The notes under the pieces are model-generated. The model searched no databases and was not told the DNA's origin. It saw only the letters and a program-made list of their open reading frames with translations. The translations under genes and the position numbers were made by a program. Below are positions 9,215 through 28,792 of a DNA stretch of 33,344 nucleotides, in pieces. The stretch lies in assembly GCA_009779925.1 (NCBI GenBank), contig WRAZ01000024.1:1-33344 (forward strand). Reading direction: 5' to 3'. The DNA comes from Chitinivibrionia bacterium (GTDB taxonomy: Bacteria > Fibrobacterota > Chitinivibrionia > Chitinivibrionales > Chitinivibrionaceae). Position 1 is the stretch's first letter. Each line of letters starts with the position of its first letter.

Positions 9215-9895
9215 ATGAGCGTTTCGGCAGTTATTGTCGCAGGAGGAATGGGCAAACGTCTCGGGAAAGAAATCCCCAAGGCGTTTGTTCTTGTAGGCGA
9301 TAAAGAAATCTTTCTTTACAGCGCGTTAGTTTTCGACAAAATGCGAGCGATAAACGAGATAATAATAGTAGTTCCCGAGCAAGCAATCGAAGAAGTCAAG
9401 CAAAAAACGAGCAATTTTTCAAAAAAAATCATTGTTGTCGGGGGAGGATGCGAGCGGCACAATTCGGTAGAAAACGGCGTTAAAGCGGCAAGCGGCAAAA
9501 GAGTGTTAATTCACGACGCGGCGCGCCCTTTTATCACTCTCGGACTTGTAAGCGAACTTTTGGAACGTTGCAAAGACCCAAAAATCTGCGGCGTTATTTC
9601 CGCAAATCCCGTCGTGGACACCGTCCGAAAATTCGACAACGAAATCTGCGGCGAAACCATAAACCGCGACGAACTGATAGCCGTCGGCACCCCGCAAATT
9701 TTCGACAAAAAACTCCTCCTCGAATGCTTTGAAAAAATAGACGATTTAGATAAAATCCCCACCGACGAAGCGATGCTTGTGCAGAATTTCGGACATAAAG
9801 TCGCGTGGGTTAAGGGGAGCAAGCTTAATTTTAAAATAACAAGCCCCGAGGATTTGGTGTTGGCGGAGGCTATAATAGGGATGAGAGGCGGATAA
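9215..9895 (+). CDS. ispD: 2-C-methyl-D-erythritol 4-phosphate cytidylyltransferase IspD
   Basis: Third step of the MEP isoprenoid pathway, making CDP-methylerythritol from MEP and CTP. The 226-aa protein has the nucleotide-binding AVIVAGGMGKRLGKEIPKAF at its start, then IHDAARPF, and ends KITSPEDLVLAEAI, all typical. No ispF follows. It closes the plus-strand operon and borders the accessory stretch; its 3' end is echoed at 10866-10917 and 12769-12791. Confidence 0.95.
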   Translation: MSVSAVIVAGGMGKRLGKEIPKAFVLVGDKEIFLYSALVFDKMRAINEIIIVVPEQAIEEVKQKTSNFSKKIIVVGGGCERHNSVENGVKAASGKRVLIHDAARPFITLGLVSELLERCKDPKICGVISANPVVDTVRKFDNEICGETINRDELIAVGTPQIFDKKLLLECFEKIDDLDKIPTDEAMLVQNFGHKVAWVKGSKLNFKITSPEDLVLAEAIIGMRGG

Positions 9896-9948
9896 CCGTC
9901 GTTTCTTTTGAAAAAGTAGCAGGGAAAAGAAATCTCCCCCGCTTTGTG

Positions 9949-10080
9949 TTAAATTGGCTTCAAACTACTAAACTGTTGAAGCAAGCCTTTCCGCTCTAAA
10001 TGCTCGTATAAAAGTATTATAGCCGATAAAATCGCACCAACCGCCATAAAAGGAGTGCCGAATGTTATCAATGCTTCCAT
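9949..10080 (-). CDS. 43-aa single-span membrane peptide
   Basis: A short open frame whose ATG overlaps the stop of the upstream 75-aa gene (TAATG), the usual sign of translational coupling. It has one predicted transmembrane segment (PFMAVGAILSAIILLY) followed by a charged tail (EHLERKGL). I recognise no family. With its partner it could be a small membrane complex or a holin-like pair, but no lysis gene is near. Confidence 0.5.
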   Translation of the reverse strand: MEALITFGTPFMAVGAILSAIILLYEHLERKGLLQQFSSLKPI

Positions 10081-10307
10081 TATTTACCACCTTTCGAAAA
10101 AATTGTCCCAAACAAAAGACCACCTGCCATAAACGCAAAACCTATTTTTGTATCCCATTCGTCCGTCAATACCATTGCTGCAAGAAACACAAGCACGCTG
10201 TAGAAGAACAAACTACTATAATCACTACGCCTTGCCGCTAAATATTCTCCTGCTCGCGATAAGCAATAACCTAAAATCTGTACAATCTGTTGAAAAAACG
10301 CTCTCAT
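10080..10307 (-). CDS. 75-aa membrane protein with two predicted spans
   Basis: Not recognised. Two hydrophobic segments are visible (LFFYSVLVFLAAMVL and GFAFMAGGLLFGTIF) after a basic/aromatic N-terminal helix. The gene has its own promoter with good spacing (10323-10351), and GCGAGG lies upstream of the ATG. It is coupled to the 43-aa peptide. Size and layout resemble phage holins or small envelope-stress proteins; neither is supported by context. Confidence 0.6.
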   Translation of the reverse strand: MRAFFQQIVQILGYCLSRAGEYLAARRSDYSSLFFYSVLVFLAAMVLTDEWDTKIGFAFMAGGLLFGTIFSKGGK

Positions 10308-10322
10308 TTATAAAACCTCGCT

Positions 10323-10351
10323 ATTATACACATAAAATACTTTTTTTACAA
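10323..10351 (-). promoter_or_regulatory. sigma-70-like promoter for the 75-aa/43-aa membrane protein pair
   Basis: On the minus strand TTGTAA, a 17-base spacer and TATAAT, ending 15 bases before the ATG. A small inverted repeat AATTCC/GGAATT (about 10350-10370) touches the -35 box and may be an operator. Confidence 0.7.
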
Positions 10352-10433
10352 TTCCATACGCAAGGAATTTCTTTTTATTCTCCGAAATCACCCTGATTCA
10401 AATATGACAAGCAAACTAAAATCGTTCCCATAT

Positions 10434-10517
10434 TTATATATCTTCTTTCCAAAGTCGCATAATAAGAAAAAGAAAACTAGCAAACATACAAGCAAGAAAA
10501 ACCACAAAAAATGCCAT
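10434..10517 (-). CDS. 27-aa hydrophobic membrane peptide, copy A
   Basis: A tiny gene with start, Shine-Dalgarno (AGAAAGGTAGG) and stop all conserved in three paralogous copies. It begins MAFFVVFLACMF and ends FLFLIMRLWKEDI: one membrane-spanning hydrophobic stretch with a short charged C-terminus. Differences from copies C and D fall largely in third codon positions or swap one hydrophobic residue for another, while FLFLIMRLWK is invariant, which supports real translation. The mRNA carries the long structured leader. The properties resemble type I toxins or small regulatory membrane peptides; the function is unknown. Confidence 0.7.
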   Translation of the reverse strand: MAFFVVFLACMFASFLFLIMRLWKEDI

Positions 10518-10768
10518 AACAACCTACCTTTCTGCCGCCTTAGGCAAATATTAAATTTTTTTAAGCAAAAAACAGCAAGGGCTGTTCTGCCGAAATTCAT
10601 ATTATTTTGCAGAAAAAGATGAATGTATATCTGGACTTGAAATTTAATGTACCAAAACCGCCGACAAAACAACCCCAAGAGCTGTTTCGCAATTTTGGCA
10701 AAAAAGATATTTCAAAGAACAGATATAAAGTCAAGAATTAAATTCTCAACTATTTATCTTTTTCTGCA
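10518..10768 (-). ncRNA. structured 5' leader RNA, copy A
   Basis: Leader of the 27-aa peptide A. Closing stem P1 is a perfect 13-bp pairing of 10756-10768 with 10608-10620. The inner hairpin 10693-10698/10652-10657 has a loop segment reading GGGGTTGTTTTGTC on the minus strand (complement of 10663-10676). This can pair, using G-U wobbles, with the conserved GGCAGAACAGCC (complement of 10580-10591) located 16 nt after P1. A short hairpin ACAGC/GCTGT competes for the same bases. The start codon is 62 nt further on. Confidence 0.75.
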
Positions 10769-10773
10769 TACAC

Positions 10774-10853
10774 AAAATACTATTTTTTCGTGGCGGAGTG
10801 GGAGATTTTTGTAGTTTTCATAAAAATGATAGATACAAACAAGTAAATTGTTT
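10774..10853 (-). promoter_or_regulatory. promoter and palindromic operator, unit A
   Basis: On the minus strand TAGTATTTT (10774-10782) lies five bases before P1 of leader A. About 55 bases upstream is the perfect palindrome AAACAAGTAAATTGTTT (10837-10853). The whole ~80-base block is conserved in units A-D. Confidence 0.65.
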
Positions 10854-10865
10854 AGATAATCGATT

Positions 10866-10917
10866 GATTTGACGCTTGCAGAGGCTGTAATAAACACAAT
10901 GTGTTTCTTTTGAAAAA
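10866..10917 (+). pseudogene. echo of the ispD 3' end (copy near unit A)
   Basis: Bases 10866-10888 resemble ispD 9851-9873 and, read in the same frame, give DLTLAEAV against DLVLAEAI. Bases 10903-10917 (GTTTCTTTTGAAAAA) are identical to 9901-9915 just after the ispD stop. This looks like a degenerate duplicate of the end of ispD and its flank. Confidence 0.5.
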
Positions 10918-10950
10918 AACTGGACAAGTATAGAAAATAATACTTACAAC

Positions 10951-10979
10951 AAAGAAAAAGCGGGCAATTTTTACCCGCT
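10951..10979 (-). terminator. intrinsic terminator after the outer-membrane protein gene
   Basis: On the minus strand AGCGGG, a 9-base loop and CCCGCT, followed by TTTTTCTTT. It lies 13 bases past the stop of the 483-aa gene. Confidence 0.8.
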
Positions 10980-10991
10980 ATTTTCAAATTT

Positions 10992-12443
10992 TTACCTGCT
11001 TCCCCAACCTACATATACGCCGGCTCTTAACGAAAGCGAATGACTTGCTTTTCTCTTGGTGCCAATTTTGTCTAAAAATTCTCTGTCGAGAGAATCAAAT
11101 TCTCCCGAACGAACTAATCTTTCATATTCTGCTACCCAAAGTTTATAGCCCAAAGAAACGTACGCTCGCCCGAAAGCAATACCAAAACTCGGATTAAAAT
11201 AAAAACTTGGATAAATGCTTATTTCATCTGTATCAGATGACCACATACTATAAACAATCGCAATGCCGGCGTCTGCGTCAATAATCGGCGATATATGTCC
11301 TTCGACAAGGTAAAAACGAGACCTCAAAAAAACCGGGGTTAAAATGTGGTGGTGGTATCTGTAAAGAATTTCGCCCTCATCCCAACGAACTCTGTCTTCA
11401 TCGACAACAACAAGCCCAGATTGCCGCCATCGCAATCTATCTATACCATCATTAGTTTGAACAAGAGTAATGTTAAACCCGACACCTAAACCAAGTGCAA
11501 AATGTCTATTAATTACCGCGCCCGAAATAAGATTACCTCCTCCCGAACTTATTCCGTAATCGCCAAGTCCGAAAGAAAAATTACCCTCAGACATAAAAAA
11601 AATTCGCGGACGTTCAACAAATATTACGTTGTCTGTATTGTTGTTGATGACAGCGCTACTAGGTGTATTAAAACCGACTTCGCTTGTTTTTCCCGCTCTT
11701 CCGCTCACTGTTCCCGATACCGTATTGTTTAACAAGGTTGTAGAGTGTCGCGCAACACTGACTATTCCGCCTGTACTACTCATTGAGCTTCCTTCTATAT
11801 TTCCTGAAAACGAACTGTTTGTAATTCTTGTTTTTTTCAAAGCGTGGCGAACTATTCCTCCTGCACCACCGCCAATTACATTTGTTGCAGAAACATTGAC
11901 GTTATCTATTGTAGAATTTTCAGTGTGTCTTGCAATGCTTGCCGCTGTGAAAAACGAATGCGAAATGTTTAGATTTCGGACAACAGCATTCCTTAATTCG
12001 GCACCAAAAAAACTCACGCCGTATAATCCTCTGATATAATGTCCGTTTCCATCAAACACTCCGGAAAATTGTGATAGACCTCGATGTAAATAAAATCTTC
12101 GTCTGACAGAATCAAAGTCTGTAGGTCTACTTGCCCGCGACCAAGTGTTGCTTCCGGTTGTGTCAAAAACCATAAGGTCGGTCAAGAGGTGTATTTCTCT
12201 ACCCGCAAATGTTGCTCCCCTGCTCCTCCCCCTATTGACACGCAAGCGCTGAAATTCTATAAAATCTTCAATCGTGCGAATTTCAAGAATTCTTTCGCCT
12301 GCAATAAATTGCTCTGCGAAAGTGATTTCAGATACGTCTTCAATTCGTTCAAATTCTTCTTCAATACTTTGATTTTGCCCAAAAGCAAATATCACCGAAA
12401 ATAAAATGCTAATCACCGTACATTTTAATTTTGATAACCCCAT
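10992..12443 (-). CDS. exported GLUG-repeat / beta-barrel outer-membrane protein
   Basis: A 483-aa protein with a signal peptide (KLKCTVISILFSVIFAFGQ). Residues ~95-275 contain repeats of the GLUG / beta-helix type (FSGVFDGNGHYIRGLYG, then AVVRNLNIS, STIDNVNVS, TRITNSSFSGNI and LLNNTVSGTVSG), common in surface adhesins. The last ~200 residues alternate hydrophobic and polar residues like outer-membrane strands (SFGLGDYGISSGGG, FALGLGVGFNITLV, AYVSLGYKLWVAEY, SLSLRAGVYVGWGSR). A surface structural or binding role is likely and no enzyme motif is seen. The ATG has GAAAGGTGGG upstream and follows leader RNA B and the shared operator. Confidence 0.8.
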   Translation of the reverse strand: MGLSKLKCTVISILFSVIFAFGQNQSIEEEFERIEDVSEITFAEQFIAGERILEIRTIEDFIEFQRLRVNRGRSRGATFAGREIHLLTDLMVFDTTGSNTWSRASRPTDFDSVRRRFYLHRGLSQFSGVFDGNGHYIRGLYGVSFFGAELRNAVVRNLNISHSFFTAASIARHTENSTIDNVNVSATNVIGGGAGGIVRHALKKTRITNSSFSGNIEGSSMSSTGGIVSVARHSTTLLNNTVSGTVSGRAGKTSEVGFNTPSSAVINNNTDNVIFVERPRIFFMSEGNFSFGLGDYGISSGGGNLISGAVINRHFALGLGVGFNITLVQTNDGIDRLRWRQSGLVVVDEDRVRWDEGEILYRYHHHILTPVFLRSRFYLVEGHISPIIDADAGIAIVYSMWSSDTDEISIYPSFYFNPSFGIAFGRAYVSLGYKLWVAEYERLVRSGEFDSLDREFLDKIGTKRKASHSLSLRAGVYVGWGSR

Positions 12444-12670
12444 ACTTAAAACCCACCTTTCAAATGGTAATATTAAACAGCAAAATGGCTGTTCTGCCGA
12501 AATTCAAATTCTGCAACAAATCGTGAAATTCTCTGTATTGATAATTAACAGTGTGCCTTTGGGAACAAACAGAACAACCAAAAAGGTTGCCTTGTTCTCA
12601 AAAGGCAAAAAAAAACAATCAAAGAACAGAGAACAGCGAGAGTAAAATCTCACTATTCACGATTTGTTGC
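12444..12670 (-). ncRNA. structured 5' leader RNA, copy B
   Basis: Leader of the 483-aa outer-membrane protein. P1 is a perfect 15-bp stem (12656-12670 with 12513-12527). The inner arm pairs GCCTTT-rich segments around 12555-12606, and its loop reads GGTTGTTCTGTT on the minus strand. The complementary GGCAGAACAGCC is the reverse of 12487-12498, 14 nt after P1, followed by the competing hairpin AACAGC/GCTGTT. The start codon is 43 nt further on. Its architecture is the same as copies A and C-F. Confidence 0.78.
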
Positions 12671-12676
12671 GGAAAG

Positions 12677-12756
12677 AAAATACTATAATTTCGTGTAGGA
12701 GTGGTGAATTTTTGTAGTTTTCATAAAAATGATAAACACAAACAAGTAAATTGTTT
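12677..12756 (-). promoter_or_regulatory. promoter and palindromic operator, unit B
   Basis: On the minus strand TAGTATTTT (12677-12685) six bases before P1, and the palindrome AAACAAGTAAATTGTTT at 12740-12756, with the intervening bases closely matching unit A. Confidence 0.65.
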
Positions 12757-12768
12757 AGATAATCGATT

Positions 12769-12791
12769 GATTTGGTGCTTGCGGAGGCTAT
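12769..12791 (+). pseudogene. echo of the ispD 3' end (copy near unit B)
   Basis: 21 of 23 bases match ispD 9851-9873. In the same frame it reads DLVLAEAI, continues VKAK and stops. The short piece has no start and no upstream ispD homology. Confidence 0.5.
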
Positions 12792-12828
12792 TGTAAAAGC
12801 TAAATAGGTATTTGAGAGATAGTTTGTG

Positions 12829-13221
12829 TTATAATCCCACTTTAATTTTGCAAAAATCGTATATTTTTTGCGTTCTGTTCAAGACAATTTCTACTATTTC
12901 GTCATATAATTCCGTATTATTGGGGTATTTCACCTCAACGCCGTAAGGATTTACAAATGCGCATAATTCTTGTATATCTTCAAAAGAATGGTCGCGGTCA
13001 ATACATAAATTACACAACATATTTAAATCGTGAATTTTTAATAAATCCCAATCTTTGCCTATCAAAAACGCCTTTAACATTTTTTCTGCACATTGCTGAC
13101 AATGATAGCAAGAAATATATAGTTGCTTGGGATTAACTTCGTAAAAAAGATGTTTCGCGACAAACAAGTCGTCGGTGGCAAATTTTATCCACTCTGCCAC
13201 AAATTTATTGTTATCTTGCAT
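12829..13221 (-). CDS. HEPN-domain protein
   Basis: A 130-aa all-helical protein with the HEPN family core YISCYHCQQCAEKMLKAFLI and KIHDLNMLC, and the closing helix RTQKIYDF. HEPN proteins paired with minimal nucleotidyltransferases act as toxin-antitoxin or phage-defence modules. The RNase motif R-x4-6-H of active HepT-type toxins is not visible here, so this may be a non-catalytic HEPN subunit. It starts 11 bases inside the end of the nucleotidyltransferase gene, so the two are made together. Confidence 0.85.
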   Translation of the reverse strand: MQDNNKFVAEWIKFATDDLFVAKHLFYEVNPKQLYISCYHCQQCAEKMLKAFLIGKDWDLLKIHDLNMLCNLCIDRDHSFEDIQELCAFVNPYGVEVKYPNNTELYDEIVEIVLNRTQKIYDFCKIKVGL

Positions 13222-13531
13222 ACAAAAGGACTCCCTCTCTTTTAACTTTTCGTTCTATTGAGGCAAAGCCGCTCCGTTCTTCAAAAAAACTTTTCTTTTC
13301 TGCAAGCACGTCAATGGGTATATTAAATTTTGCCTTTGCGATGTTCAGCGAAATTTGCTCTAAAATGGGATATTTGCTTTCGATGTCGTCTTTAAGCACT
13401 ACAAAAAAATCGTAATCGCTGTTTTGGTGCGTAGTTCCGTAGGCGCGCGAGCCAAACAGATAAATATTTTCACAATCTGTTGTTTTGAGAATGGTATCTT
13501 TTACCCGCAATGCCTCATTGTCTATTTGCAT
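13211..13531 (-). CDS. minimal nucleotidyltransferase (MNT) partner of HEPN
   Basis: A 106-aa protein of the DNA-polymerase-beta-like minimal nucleotidyltransferase family. It has the diagnostic GS-x10-DxD motif (GSRAYGTTHQNSDYDFFV) and the later aspartate strand FNIPIDVLAE. In type VII toxin-antitoxin systems the MNT AMPylates and silences the HEPN toxin. AGGGGG lies upstream of the ATG. The pair sits directly downstream of peptide C and could receive read-through from that promoter. Confidence 0.88.
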   Translation of the reverse strand: MQIDNEALRVKDTILKTTDCENIYLFGSRAYGTTHQNSDYDFFVVLKDDIESKYPILEQISLNIAKAKFNIPIDVLAEKKSFFEERSGFASIERKVKREGVLLYAR

Positions 13532-13611
13532 ATAATCCCCCTGTTTTTATTAGAAAATAATATTCGCCACAAACAAAAAGGCTGACAATATATGCCAATA
13601 TGTTCCCATAT

Positions 13612-13695
13612 TTATATATCTCCTTTCCAAAGTCGCATAATAAGAAAAAGAAAAGCAATAAACACGCACGCAAGAAGAACTACAAAAAACTCCAT
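13612..13695 (-). CDS. 27-aa hydrophobic membrane peptide, copy C
   Basis: Paralogue of copies A and D, exactly 27 codons. It begins MEFFVVLLACVF and ends FLFLIMRLWKGDI. The Shine-Dalgarno AGAAAGGCAGG is conserved. The alternative frame over the same DNA contains a stop in this copy, so the 27-codon frame is the one kept open in all three. It is followed ~80 bases on by the MNT/HEPN genes. Confidence 0.7.
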   Translation of the reverse strand: MEFFVVLLACVFIAFLFLIMRLWKGDI

Positions 13696-13926
13696 AACAA
13701 ACCTGCCTTTCTGTCGTTTTCGACAAATATTAAAATTTAAAACAAAAACAGCAAGGGCTGTTCCGCCAAAATTCATATTTTTTGCAGTAAAGTATGAAAA
13801 GACCTATATTTGGTTATACGCCAAAAAGAAGATAGAACAGCCCAAACGGACGTTCTTCTTTTTAATATGTATAACGAAAGAATAGAATGGAAGTTAGAAT
13901 AAATCTACTTTCCATACTTTACTGCA
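13696..13926 (-). ncRNA. structured 5' leader RNA, copy C
   Basis: P1 pairs 13913-13926 with 13783-13796 (14 perfect bp), extendable to 19 bp with one G-U on the minus strand. The inner hairpin is a perfect 10-bp stem (13854-13863 with 13823-13832) whose loop contains GGGCTGTTCTA on the minus strand. The downstream partner reads GGCGGAACAGCC (reverse of 13756-13767), 15 nt after P1. The start codon is 60 nt further on. Confidence 0.78.
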
Positions 13927-13931
13927 CCAAG

Positions 13932-14012
13932 AAAATACTATTTTTTTCGTGGCGAAGTGGGAAATTTTTGCAGTTTTCACAAAAATTATAGATACAAACA
14001 AGTAAATTGTTT
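13932..14012 (-). promoter_or_regulatory. promoter and palindromic operator, unit C
   Basis: On the minus strand TAGTATTTT (13932-13940) five bases before P1, and the palindrome AAACAAGTAAATTGTTT at 13996-14012. Confidence 0.65.
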
Positions 14013-14054
14013 AGATAATCGTTTTGGCGAAATAGCGTCATTGTGTTCCCGTAT

Positions 14055-14138
14055 TTATATATCGTCTTTCCAAAGTCGCATAATAAGAAAAAGGAAACTA
14101 ACAAACATACACGCAAGAAGAACTACCAAAAATACCAT
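14055..14138 (-). CDS. 27-aa hydrophobic membrane peptide, copy D
   Basis: Third paralogue, 27 codons, beginning MVFLVVLLACMF and ending FLFLIMRLWKDDI, with Shine-Dalgarno AGAAAGGTAGG. Together with A and C it shows conservative hydrophobic exchanges in the N-terminal half, an invariant FLFLIMRLWK, a variable residue 25 (E, G or D) and a final Asp-Ile. A single-span inner-membrane peptide is the most likely product. Confidence 0.7.
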   Translation of the reverse strand: MVFLVVLLACMFVSFLFLIMRLWKDDI

Positions 14139-14359
14139 AGCAACCTACCTTTCTGCCGTTTTCGACAAATATTAAAACATTAAAAAGCAAAACAGCAAGG
14201 GCTGTTCCGCCAAAATTCATTGTTTTTTGCGAAAATTTAGAATTGTCCCACATCAAAAAGACAGGCTACATAGGCAGAACAGCCCAAGAAAGGAAATTCT
14301 AACCTATCTGTATAAATAAAATGTGGGGGACAAAATCCCCACAATTCCAAATTTTCGCA
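14139..14359 (-). ncRNA. structured 5' leader RNA, copy D
   Basis: P1 pairs 14341-14359 with 14228-14246 (19 bp, one G-U on the minus strand). Inside, ATAGG/CCTAT (14270-14274, 14303-14307) closes a loop reading GGGCTGTTCTGCC on the minus strand, complementary to GGCGGAACAGCC (reverse of 14200-14211) located 16 nt after P1. An extra G/C-rich hairpin at 14322-14342 competes with P1. The loop also contains CCTTTCT, complementary to the Shine-Dalgarno AGAAAGG of its own gene. Confidence 0.75.
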
Positions 14360-14364
14360 TCCAC

Positions 14365-14443
14365 AAAATACTATTTTTTCGTGGTAAAGTGGGAGATTTT
14401 TATATTTTTTGCAAAATGATAGATACAAACAAATAAATTGTTT
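14365..14443 (-). promoter_or_regulatory. promoter and palindromic operator, unit D
   Basis: On the minus strand TAGTATTTT (14365-14373) five bases before P1, and the palindrome AAACAAATAAATTGTTT at 14427-14443. The operator is also ~55 bases upstream of the divergent dapA-like gene and could serve both. Confidence 0.65.
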
Positions 14444-14497
14444 AGATAATCGCTTTGGAGAAATATTATTTTTACGTCCAAAAAAGGAGAAAATAAA

Positions 14498-17058: not shown

Positions 17059-18282
17059 TCAAAACTCAACCCGAAAATACCCCGACAAGCCAGAAAGTAA
17101 TATCGTTTTCCATACATTTTTTCGGTTGCTTGTTTCGTTAATTATTGGGCTTTCTTCTACGTCGTTTGCTCGAAATTTGTCTAAACCCCAAGGCGCGGCG
17201 AAGATTTTTCGCATTCCGAAGTGAATTTTTGCTCTGTTTTTTATGTTTAAGGGCGGGCTTTCGAGCGAATATCCAAGAAATGCTAATCCTGTGTTTTTTA
17301 GGTCTAAGTACATTTCTCTCTGTTTTTCTCTGCCGCCGAATAATCTTTTGTATAAGTAATGGACATCCGCGCTGAATTCACCGCCGATAATATTTGCCGC
17401 GCCGAGCATAAATAAATGATTTAAGCGGCGAGCTTGCAATTCAAACGAAAGGGCAGTCCAAAGAGCAAGCGCGTTTGCTTCTCCGTCTATATCGAAAAAC
17501 ATATACGGAAACAGAAAATATTGCTGATTTGCAGGATTTATGGAGCCGTCTGCCGAAAAAGAAGCGTAGTTTAATCCCAAAATTCCGTAAATGTTCGATA
17601 ATTTTTGCGGTTTGGAAAACAAATGCCTGTAATTTATTCCCAAAACGTAATTATCGGAATTAAAAAGCGGCATTTCTGCGTTATTTACGATATTTATGTC
17701 AAAAGTTTGATACGAAATATTCAGTTTATGCCTTTCTTTGTGTTCTGCCGACAAGCCGAAATGCAGAAAGAGAGGAATATCGGGTTTCCCGAAAAAATAA
17801 TAAAAGCACCCGTCGTCAAATTTTCCTTTGCCGAGCAAAAAAGACGGGGTAAATCGGAAATCGCGAATATTTAGCTCCACGTTTGAGCCGATATAAAAGC
17901 CCTTTGCGCCCTCGTTTGTAATTTTTATTTGATCTCCGCGATGCCGAAAGCGCGTTTCTATTTCGGATTGACTGAAAAAGCCTGCGAAAATTTGGGGTGA
18001 AATTGCGTTGAAGTCGAATTTTACAGAATAATCGGCTCTGATAATTTCGCTTGTAAACCAAGGCATATTCGAGCCGATTTTAAGAAATCCCAAGCGATTA
18101 CGGAAAAATTTTGGGTTGTCATAATTTATGTCGGCATTCCAAAAAAATATTCGGTCGTCTTGCAAATGCAGTAAAATTCCGCTTTCGCTTGAAAGTTCAA
18201 AGTTTTGGGCAAGGAGGGGTTTCAGTAAAACCAAAACCCAAATCCAAGCCCTGAAAAACAATACTTTTTTTGAAAACCTCAT
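17059..18282 (-). CDS. outer-membrane beta-barrel protein
   Basis: A 407-aa protein with a signal peptide (RAWIWVLVLLKPLLAQ) and many alternating amphipathic segments with aromatic girdles (for example GFYIGSNVELNI, RFTPSFLLGKGKF and YVLGINYRHLF), ending in YFRVEF. A final Phe after alternating hydrophobics is the usual BAM recognition signal. No enzymatic motif is seen. The ATG overlaps the stop of the upstream lipoprotein gene by four bases (ATGA), so the two are coupled and may work together at the outer membrane. Confidence 0.8.
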   Translation of the reverse strand: MRFSKKVLFFRAWIWVLVLLKPLLAQNFELSSESGILLHLQDDRIFFWNADINYDNPKFFRNRLGFLKIGSNMPWFTSEIIRADYSVKFDFNAISPQIFAGFFSQSEIETRFRHRGDQIKITNEGAKGFYIGSNVELNIRDFRFTPSFLLGKGKFDDGCFYYFFGKPDIPLFLHFGLSAEHKERHKLNISYQTFDINIVNNAEMPLFNSDNYVLGINYRHLFSKPQKLSNIYGILGLNYASFSADGSINPANQQYFLFPYMFFDIDGEANALALWTALSFELQARRLNHLFMLGAANIIGGEFSADVHYLYKRLFGGREKQREMYLDLKNTGLAFLGYSLESPPLNIKNRAKIHFGMRKIFAAPWGLDKFRANDVEESPIINETSNRKNVWKTILLSGLSGYFRVEF

Positions 18283-28411: not shown

Positions 28412-28792
28412 TTAAAGAACGTCCCAATATCCAAAACCTGCTTCTATTGTGTTGTCCAAGCAGAAAAAGCTGAGAATTTCTCCGTTTCTCTTTGTATAAA
28501 CCATAAATATATGTACTCCGCCTATGTTAATTCTGGCTAGGCTCTTATTAACGCGAAAAACCTCGACTGCACGACCTGCCACTACATAATCAATCGGTAA
28601 TCGCGGAAGTTTTCTTCCTCTTTCTAATATTATATTTCTGTTAGGCATTTTTAGTACAACTCTTGTATAATTAGTAATACTGACTCTTTCTTGCCACTCT
28701 TTCGCTTCTTGACTATCCCAGTCAACATTCTGCGCCCACACACTTACATAAAATACCATCAACATCAACACTGTTTTAGCGAATACGCCCAT
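28412..28792 (-). CDS. small secreted protein controlled by leader RNA F
   Basis: The start is the ATG at 28792: AGAAAGG lies upstream and a signal peptide begins there (MGVFAKTVLMLMVFYVSVWA). The longer frame reads through the structured leader and is not used. The mature ~105 residues are rich in beta-type segments (TRVVLKMPNRNIIL, INIGGVHIFMVYTK) and end in FGYWDVL. The family is not recognised. Signal peptide and leader link it to the other leader-controlled envelope genes. Confidence 0.72.
   Translation of the reverse strand: MGVFAKTVLMLMVFYVSVWAQNVDWDSQEAKEWQERVSITNYTRVVLKMPNRNIILERGRKLPRLPIDYVVAGRAVEVFRVNKSLARINIGGVHIFMVYTKRNGEILSFFCLDNTIEAGFGYWDVL

Follow-up and report, generated by a model that had tools for sequence, protein, structure and literature searches.

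Riboswitch classes such as SAM-IV and cobalamin carry a long-range pseudoknot that reaches from a loop to the expression platform, and c-di-GMP riboswitches serve multi-copy regulons of envelope genes. A candidate structured RNA, Termite-flg (RF01729), has been described from termite hindgut bacteria only (PMC2864571). The locus studied here lies in a stretch of 33,344 nucleotides (nt) from Chitinivibrionia bacterium (assembly GCA_009779925.1, contig WRAZ01000024.1, positions 1 to 33,344 of the forward strand; hereafter the window), in which three minus-strand open reading frames (ORFs) of 27 codons each stand behind a structured leader RNA. This leader resembles riboswitches such as SAM-IV and cobalamin in its closing helix (P1), its internal hairpins, the pairing of a loop with a strand 3' of P1, and a predicted overlap of that strand with a terminator or a Shine-Dalgarno (SD) sequence. 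Unlike them, it lacks a sequence or Rfam match, occurs in two species of one genus at ~60 copies per genome, and precedes genes for exported proteins rather than those of a single pathway. With c-di-GMP riboswitches it shares the placement of one leader, in many copies, before genes for surface or secreted proteins, but its fold is different, and searches of the window and of the tested leader loci gave no match to that family. Termite-flg likewise has no match in this genome at E <= 1. The encoded peptides are, like the type I toxins (Ibs, Ldr, TisB, Fst and similar), very short single-span peptides with a charged tail, several copies and a structured mRNA; unlike those toxins, they have neither a family match nor a supported antisense gene, and their leader is common to ordinary genes.

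Taken as a whole, the data are, with moderate confidence, best explained by duplicated membrane-peptide genes under their own promoters, together with a genus-restricted leader RNA, predicted to be an on/off switch, that heads ~60 genes, most of them envelope genes.

A leader RNA family at the peptide genes and beyond

A preliminary description, made from the sequence, had located three minus-strand ORFs with a shared SD sequence, and these were recovered as described:

10434..10517, minus strand, 27-amino-acid (aa) membrane-peptide ORF, copy A, starting 42 nt after leader A
13612..13695, minus strand, 27-aa membrane-peptide ORF, copy B, starting 40 nt after leader B
14055..14138, minus strand, 27-aa membrane-peptide ORF, copy C, starting 41 nt after leader C

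Their translations are MAFFVVFLACMFASFLFLIMRLWKEDI (10434-10517), MEFFVVLLACVFIAFLFLIMRLWKGDI (13612-13695) and MVFLVVLLACMFVSFLFLIMRLWKDDI (14055-14138), each from 27 codons followed by TAA, with an identical AGAAAGG ribosome-binding site ~10 nt 5' of the ATG. When the three loci were aligned, ~300 nt upstream of the ORFs proved homologous as well, and a fourth copy was found to precede an unrelated ORF of 483 aa. The window contains seven occurrences of the motif GGCRGAACAGCC (0.13 expected), and the genome, at no more than one mismatch, contains 119, compared with 24 for the reversed control. A strong upstream helix was found by complementarity in 23 motif copies, which were then aligned and tested to yield a covariance model, R1; the ends of these first 23 sequences were chosen by P1, and that set is biased in this respect. 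Across the 2.5-Mb genome R1 found 65 matches, of which 58 score at least 76 bits, and the sister species, the sole other genome of the genus compared, has no fewer than 27. The leader copies in the window are:

10560..10768, minus strand, leader copy A (P1, P2, P3 and pseudoknot strand), 133.9 bits with R1
13736..13926, minus strand, leader copy B, 133.3 bits
14180..14359, minus strand, leader copy C, 122.5 bits
12467..12671, minus strand, leader before the 483-aa exported-protein ORF, 138.6 bits
20515..20713, minus strand, leader before a lipoprotein-like ORF ending at 18279, 126.9 bits
28836..29020, minus strand, leader before a 126-aa exported-protein ORF ending at 28412, 122.5 bits

Searches of the 59 other relatives with R1 gave no match, nor did nine of them when re-searched with laxer filters. 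Scanning 84,980 species for the exact pattern returned 82 stretches, but those of Chitinivibrionia bacterium Mp193P3bin36, which by its identical R1 scores appears to be the sister genome, were the only ones borne out by the covariance model, and six pattern matches in viral contigs were not confirmed either; a wide distribution of the leader was rejected on these grounds. Rfam searches of the window at the gathering threshold and of three leader loci at E <= 5 returned only tRNAs and chance matches to miRNAs and snoRNAs, and identity with a described Rfam family, Termite-flg included, was rejected for want of a match. By these searches, the leader is a previously undescribed RNA of ~200 nt, predicted to act in cis, genus-restricted (two species) and present in ~60 copies in this genome. 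The isolate name Mp193P3bin36, together with the literature on such genomes (PMC7024585), suggests a termite-gut source.

Fold, promoter-like motif and predicted expression platform of the leader

From 5' to 3', the leader comprises a promoter-like block, P1 (15-20 bp), P2, the stretch UUUUCRU, P3, the 3' arm of P1, an AAAAnUAUGA linker, region 3, an A/U-rich stretch, the SD sequence and the start codon; UUUUCRU and AAAAnUAUGA are conserved and unpaired. Region 2 (GGYUGUUCUGYC) lies in the P3 loop and region 3 (GGCRGAACARCC) lies 3' of P1, and the two pair as a long-range pseudoknot. In the peptide loci the pseudoknot strands are:

10663..10674, minus strand, region 2 in the P3 loop, copy A (GGTTGTTTTGTC)
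10580..10591, minus strand, region 3, 3' of P1, copy A (GGCAGAACAGCC)
13831..13842, minus strand, region 2, copy B (GGCTGTTCTATC)
13756..13767, minus strand, region 3, copy B (GGCGGAACAGCC)
14273..14284, minus strand (found as its complement on the plus strand), region 2, copy C (GGCTGTTCTGCC)
14200..14211, minus strand, region 3, copy C (GGCGGAACAGCC)

The fold is borne out by compensatory changes. Among 84 distinct leader copies, 97.0% of cells were paired, compared with ~42% when the partners were slid, and both sides had changed at 15/15 pairs of P1, 5/5 of P2 and 6/12 of the pseudoknot between regions 2 and 3, the strands of which were 98% paired. In the sister species the pseudoknot covaries as CUAUCUA/UAGAUAG (leader L135), CUACC/GGUAG (L136 and L137) and GGUCG/CGACC (L142). 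An independent test, anchored on region 3 alone, placed P1 above all 20 shuffles in 74/76 copies, and P3 reached at least 7 bp in 69/69. The view, put forward in the preliminary description, of small single-span membrane peptides with a heavily structured mRNA is supported, and the covariation and shuffle tests strongly confirm the structured mRNA.

In 73/80 copies, drawn from both species, a TATTTT sequence occupies exactly positions -11 to -6 relative to the start of P1; further upstream, at about -35, the promoter-like block has a C-rich motif. At the peptide genes the fixed family motif is found at:

10774..10779, minus strand, -10-like TATTTT of leader A
13932..13937, minus strand, -10-like TATTTT of leader B
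14365..14370, minus strand, -10-like TATTTT of leader C

Because TATTTT has a fixed position before P1, transcription would appear to begin at P1 of the leader.

Downstream, region 3 and the sequence just 3' of it can form a terminator-like hairpin in 37/55 copies of this genome, where shuffled tails gave an expectation of 4.9. The hairpins that reuse region 3 in the peptide loci are:

10573..10592, minus strand, terminator-like hairpin, copy A
13745..13764, minus strand, terminator-like hairpin, copy B
14186..14211, minus strand, terminator-like hairpin, copy C

Region 3 and the CCUUU that follows it are also complementary to the SD segment AGGAGGUUGYU. The sequence GGTTG stands beside the SD in 27/63 leader genes and in 0/33 controls (Fisher P = 1.6e-6), and the duplex of region 3 with its cognate SD averages -9.65 kcal/mol, compared with -6.02 kcal/mol with control SD sequences. 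A universal sequestration of the SD by region 3 was rejected, as it holds in a subset of this genome's copies and fails in the sister species. An arrangement like the anti-antiterminator of trp leaders, with the 5' side of the P3 loop (AACARCC) pairing with region 2, was rejected as well, with 25/69 observed and 25.0 expected over the family.

The fold and a competition for region 3 find support in the sequence, and from these we infer that the leader switches and that the pseudoknotted form is the active one. In the proposed mechanism, formation of the pseudoknot would keep region 3, its 3' strand, occupied in the ON state, and the gene would be expressed. In the OFF state the pseudoknot would be absent and region 3 would fold into an intrinsic-terminator hairpin, turning the gene off, or in some copies would cover the SD sequence instead.

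The peptide genes and competing explanations

Nearly every leader copy is followed on the same strand by an SD sequence and a start codon, mostly 20-100 nt from the end of the RNA, and a few have no obvious gene downstream; the peptide ORFs, which start 40-42 nt after the leader, fall within this spacing, as most other leader genes begin at 20-55 nt. A crude rule based on hydrophobicity calls a signal or membrane segment at the N-terminus of 43/49 leader-gene proteins and in 8/26 window genes without a leader (P = 9e-7), and Pfam matches among ten leader-gene proteins include OmpA, GLUG-motif and LpoB-like domains. Since the same leader heads mostly genes for exported or membrane proteins, the simplest reading of the 27-aa ORFs is as members of an envelope regulon rather than as type I toxins, and the peptides would be expressed together with that regulon. 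They may be small membrane regulators, the alternative named in the preliminary description. Three leaders (L059, L077 and L131) precede genes that resemble, by eye, defence or accessory genes (FRG-like, DUF1016/YhcG-like) and not genes for exported proteins.

Within the peptides, FLFLIMRLWK is unchanged in all copies, as previously described, and the DNA for LFLIMRLWK is also identical in all three. Each pair of ORFs differs at 8-12 of 84 positions. An earlier characterization of the differences as mostly silent or hydrophobic swaps holds in part: each pair has 5-6 replacement codons to 2-3 silent ones, and the replacements include A/E/V at residue 2 and E/G/D at residue 25. Thirteen of the 15 variable sites fall in codons 1-15 and two in codons 16-28. 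The ORFs are alike because leader and ORF were recently duplicated together, and in our proposal they would be recent duplicates of a gene for a small membrane protein with a single span, each with its own promoter and its own copy of the leader. For a test of coding, one ORF copy was randomly mutated to the observed distance, and frame and BLOSUM score were compared. The frame stayed intact in 27-43% of trials. For an intact frame combined with a BLOSUM similarity no lower than that observed, P was 0.005, 0.009 and 0.038 in the three pairwise comparisons, and these are not independent of one another. An origin of the three ORFs as chance open frames is unlikely, but the test offers only modest evidence of coding constraint.

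Of the other explanations, the one that survives best is that the ORFs are non-functional remnants, for example shortened signal-peptide ends, that hitch-hiked in the duplication of the leader. Recent duplication would account for their similarity, no homologues were found elsewhere among the 60 relatives, T-rich DNA readily encodes hydrophobic residues, and other leaders also precede very short hydrophobic ORFs, of 33 aa (L061), 30 aa (L074) and 20 aa (L129). Against this, the three ORFs have no stop or indel although the intervening leader has many indels, their replacements are milder than random, all three retain the SD and start site, and the charged tail is invariant, unlike that of a signal peptide; we regard remnants as unlikely, though a serious contender. 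The short ORF behind leader L061 (L061:1725-1826) encodes a hydrophobic peptide with a basic tail (MCEINIFLLILLAIIAIHIGKILCRLLSIPSSF) whose sequence is unrelated to the 27-aa peptides.

A second explanation concerns the leader itself, which might be a passive element for 5' mRNA stabilization or localization, its long 5'-terminal P1 and its pseudoknot protecting the mRNAs of exported proteins from decay. The apparent position of P1 at the transcript start would suit such a role, as would the retention of the fold while helix sequences vary freely. It would leave unexplained, however, why region 3 lies within a terminator-like hairpin in 37/55 copies, why it matches the SD segment, and why the unpaired UUUUCRU and AAAAnUAUGA are conserved, and we judge it a little less probable still than the remnants.

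It is improbable that the ORFs are regulatory upstream ORFs, that is, leader peptides controlling downstream genes. Genes for a 106-aa nucleotidyltransferase and a HEPN protein do follow copy B after ~80 nt on the same strand, and a 75-aa ORF follows copy A, but downstream of copy C there is a further promoter and leader instead of a gene, and the three downstream contexts differ while the peptide stays the same. The weakest candidate, type I toxins silenced by antisense RNA as the preliminary description had suggested, is very improbable: the peptides do resemble described toxins (the review PMC8309996, from which the definition was taken, and PMC9860968) in their 27 aa (limit <~60 aa, single-span), one hydrophobic stretch and charged C-terminus, in their several nearby copies and in their structured 5' leader, but they match no toxin family in Pfam or NCBIfam, even near the cut-off, their structured leader, one reason for the suggestion, is not peculiar to them and heads dozens of ordinary exported-protein genes, promoter-like sites do not exceed chance (19, compared with 14.5 +/- 4.4 in shuffles) and give no support for an antisense gene, and no relatives were found in 60 genomes, phages, plasmids and viral contigs. 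In these searches the peptide was found in its three copies in its own genome, the 60 related genomes yielded no credible relative (weak matches, E 0.06 or worse), the exact 25-nt core had no match in viral contigs, and the leader with its peptide ORF had none in phages and plasmids.

The genomic setting of the peptide genes is a block between two genes that share a few bases in the sister species but are 4.6 kb apart here:

9896..14497, no strand assigned, 4.6-kb block flanked by ispD and dapA and missing from the sister species

Within the block lie the three peptide units, the 483-aa gene and the leader before it, the HEPN/nucleotidyltransferase pair and the 75-aa ORF, mostly as minus-strand genes. 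Pieces resembling the 3' end of ispD (9851-9915, 10866-10917 and 12769-12798) recur directly behind two leader copies, and for this reason the block probably accreted by repeated insertion or duplication. The pair at 12829-13531 consists of a HEPN gene and an MNT-type nucleotidyltransferase gene, the usual make-up of a toxin-antitoxin pair, and the nucleotidyltransferase also matches the PADLOC models PDC-S09.

A predicted envelope regulon on one RNA fold

Several results weigh against duplicated membrane-peptide genes under a switching leader. Support for coding is modest in the peptide ORFs (P about 0.005-0.04), and beyond their own genome no homologue was found in the 60 relatives searched. 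In the sister species few copies have the terminator-like hairpin (6/23, with 1.7 expected) and a different conserved stretch lies between region 3 and the SD; SD pairing there is no better than in controls (median rank 0.42). In peptide copies A, B and C the pairing is weakly better than in controls (rank 0.18-0.30), and a few leader genes encode cytoplasmic products. Many of the sister-species leaders (L088-L102 and L135-L142) carry, between region 3 and the SD, an extra conserved stretch, TAATTCATAA...CGGCAATAACAATAACGTTTTTGCATAA, which is absent from the copies of this genome.

To our knowledge, few known leader RNAs are confined to one genus at ~60 copies per genome and also covary strongly, share a promoter and serve a common class of target genes. 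At its broadest, and with somewhat less than an even chance in our estimate, the leader would represent a novel class of pseudoknotted switch RNA that arose or was greatly multiplied within one genus, probably of the termite gut, providing a common promoter and post-initiation control for ~60 scattered envelope genes, the 27-aa micro-ORFs among them, so that one signal would set much of the cell surface. Standing behind such a leader makes a micro-ORF far more credible than it would be by itself, and leaders of this kind may offer a route to real small-protein genes. If the leader does switch, a single RNA fold would connect a whole surface-protein regulon in an uncultured lineage.
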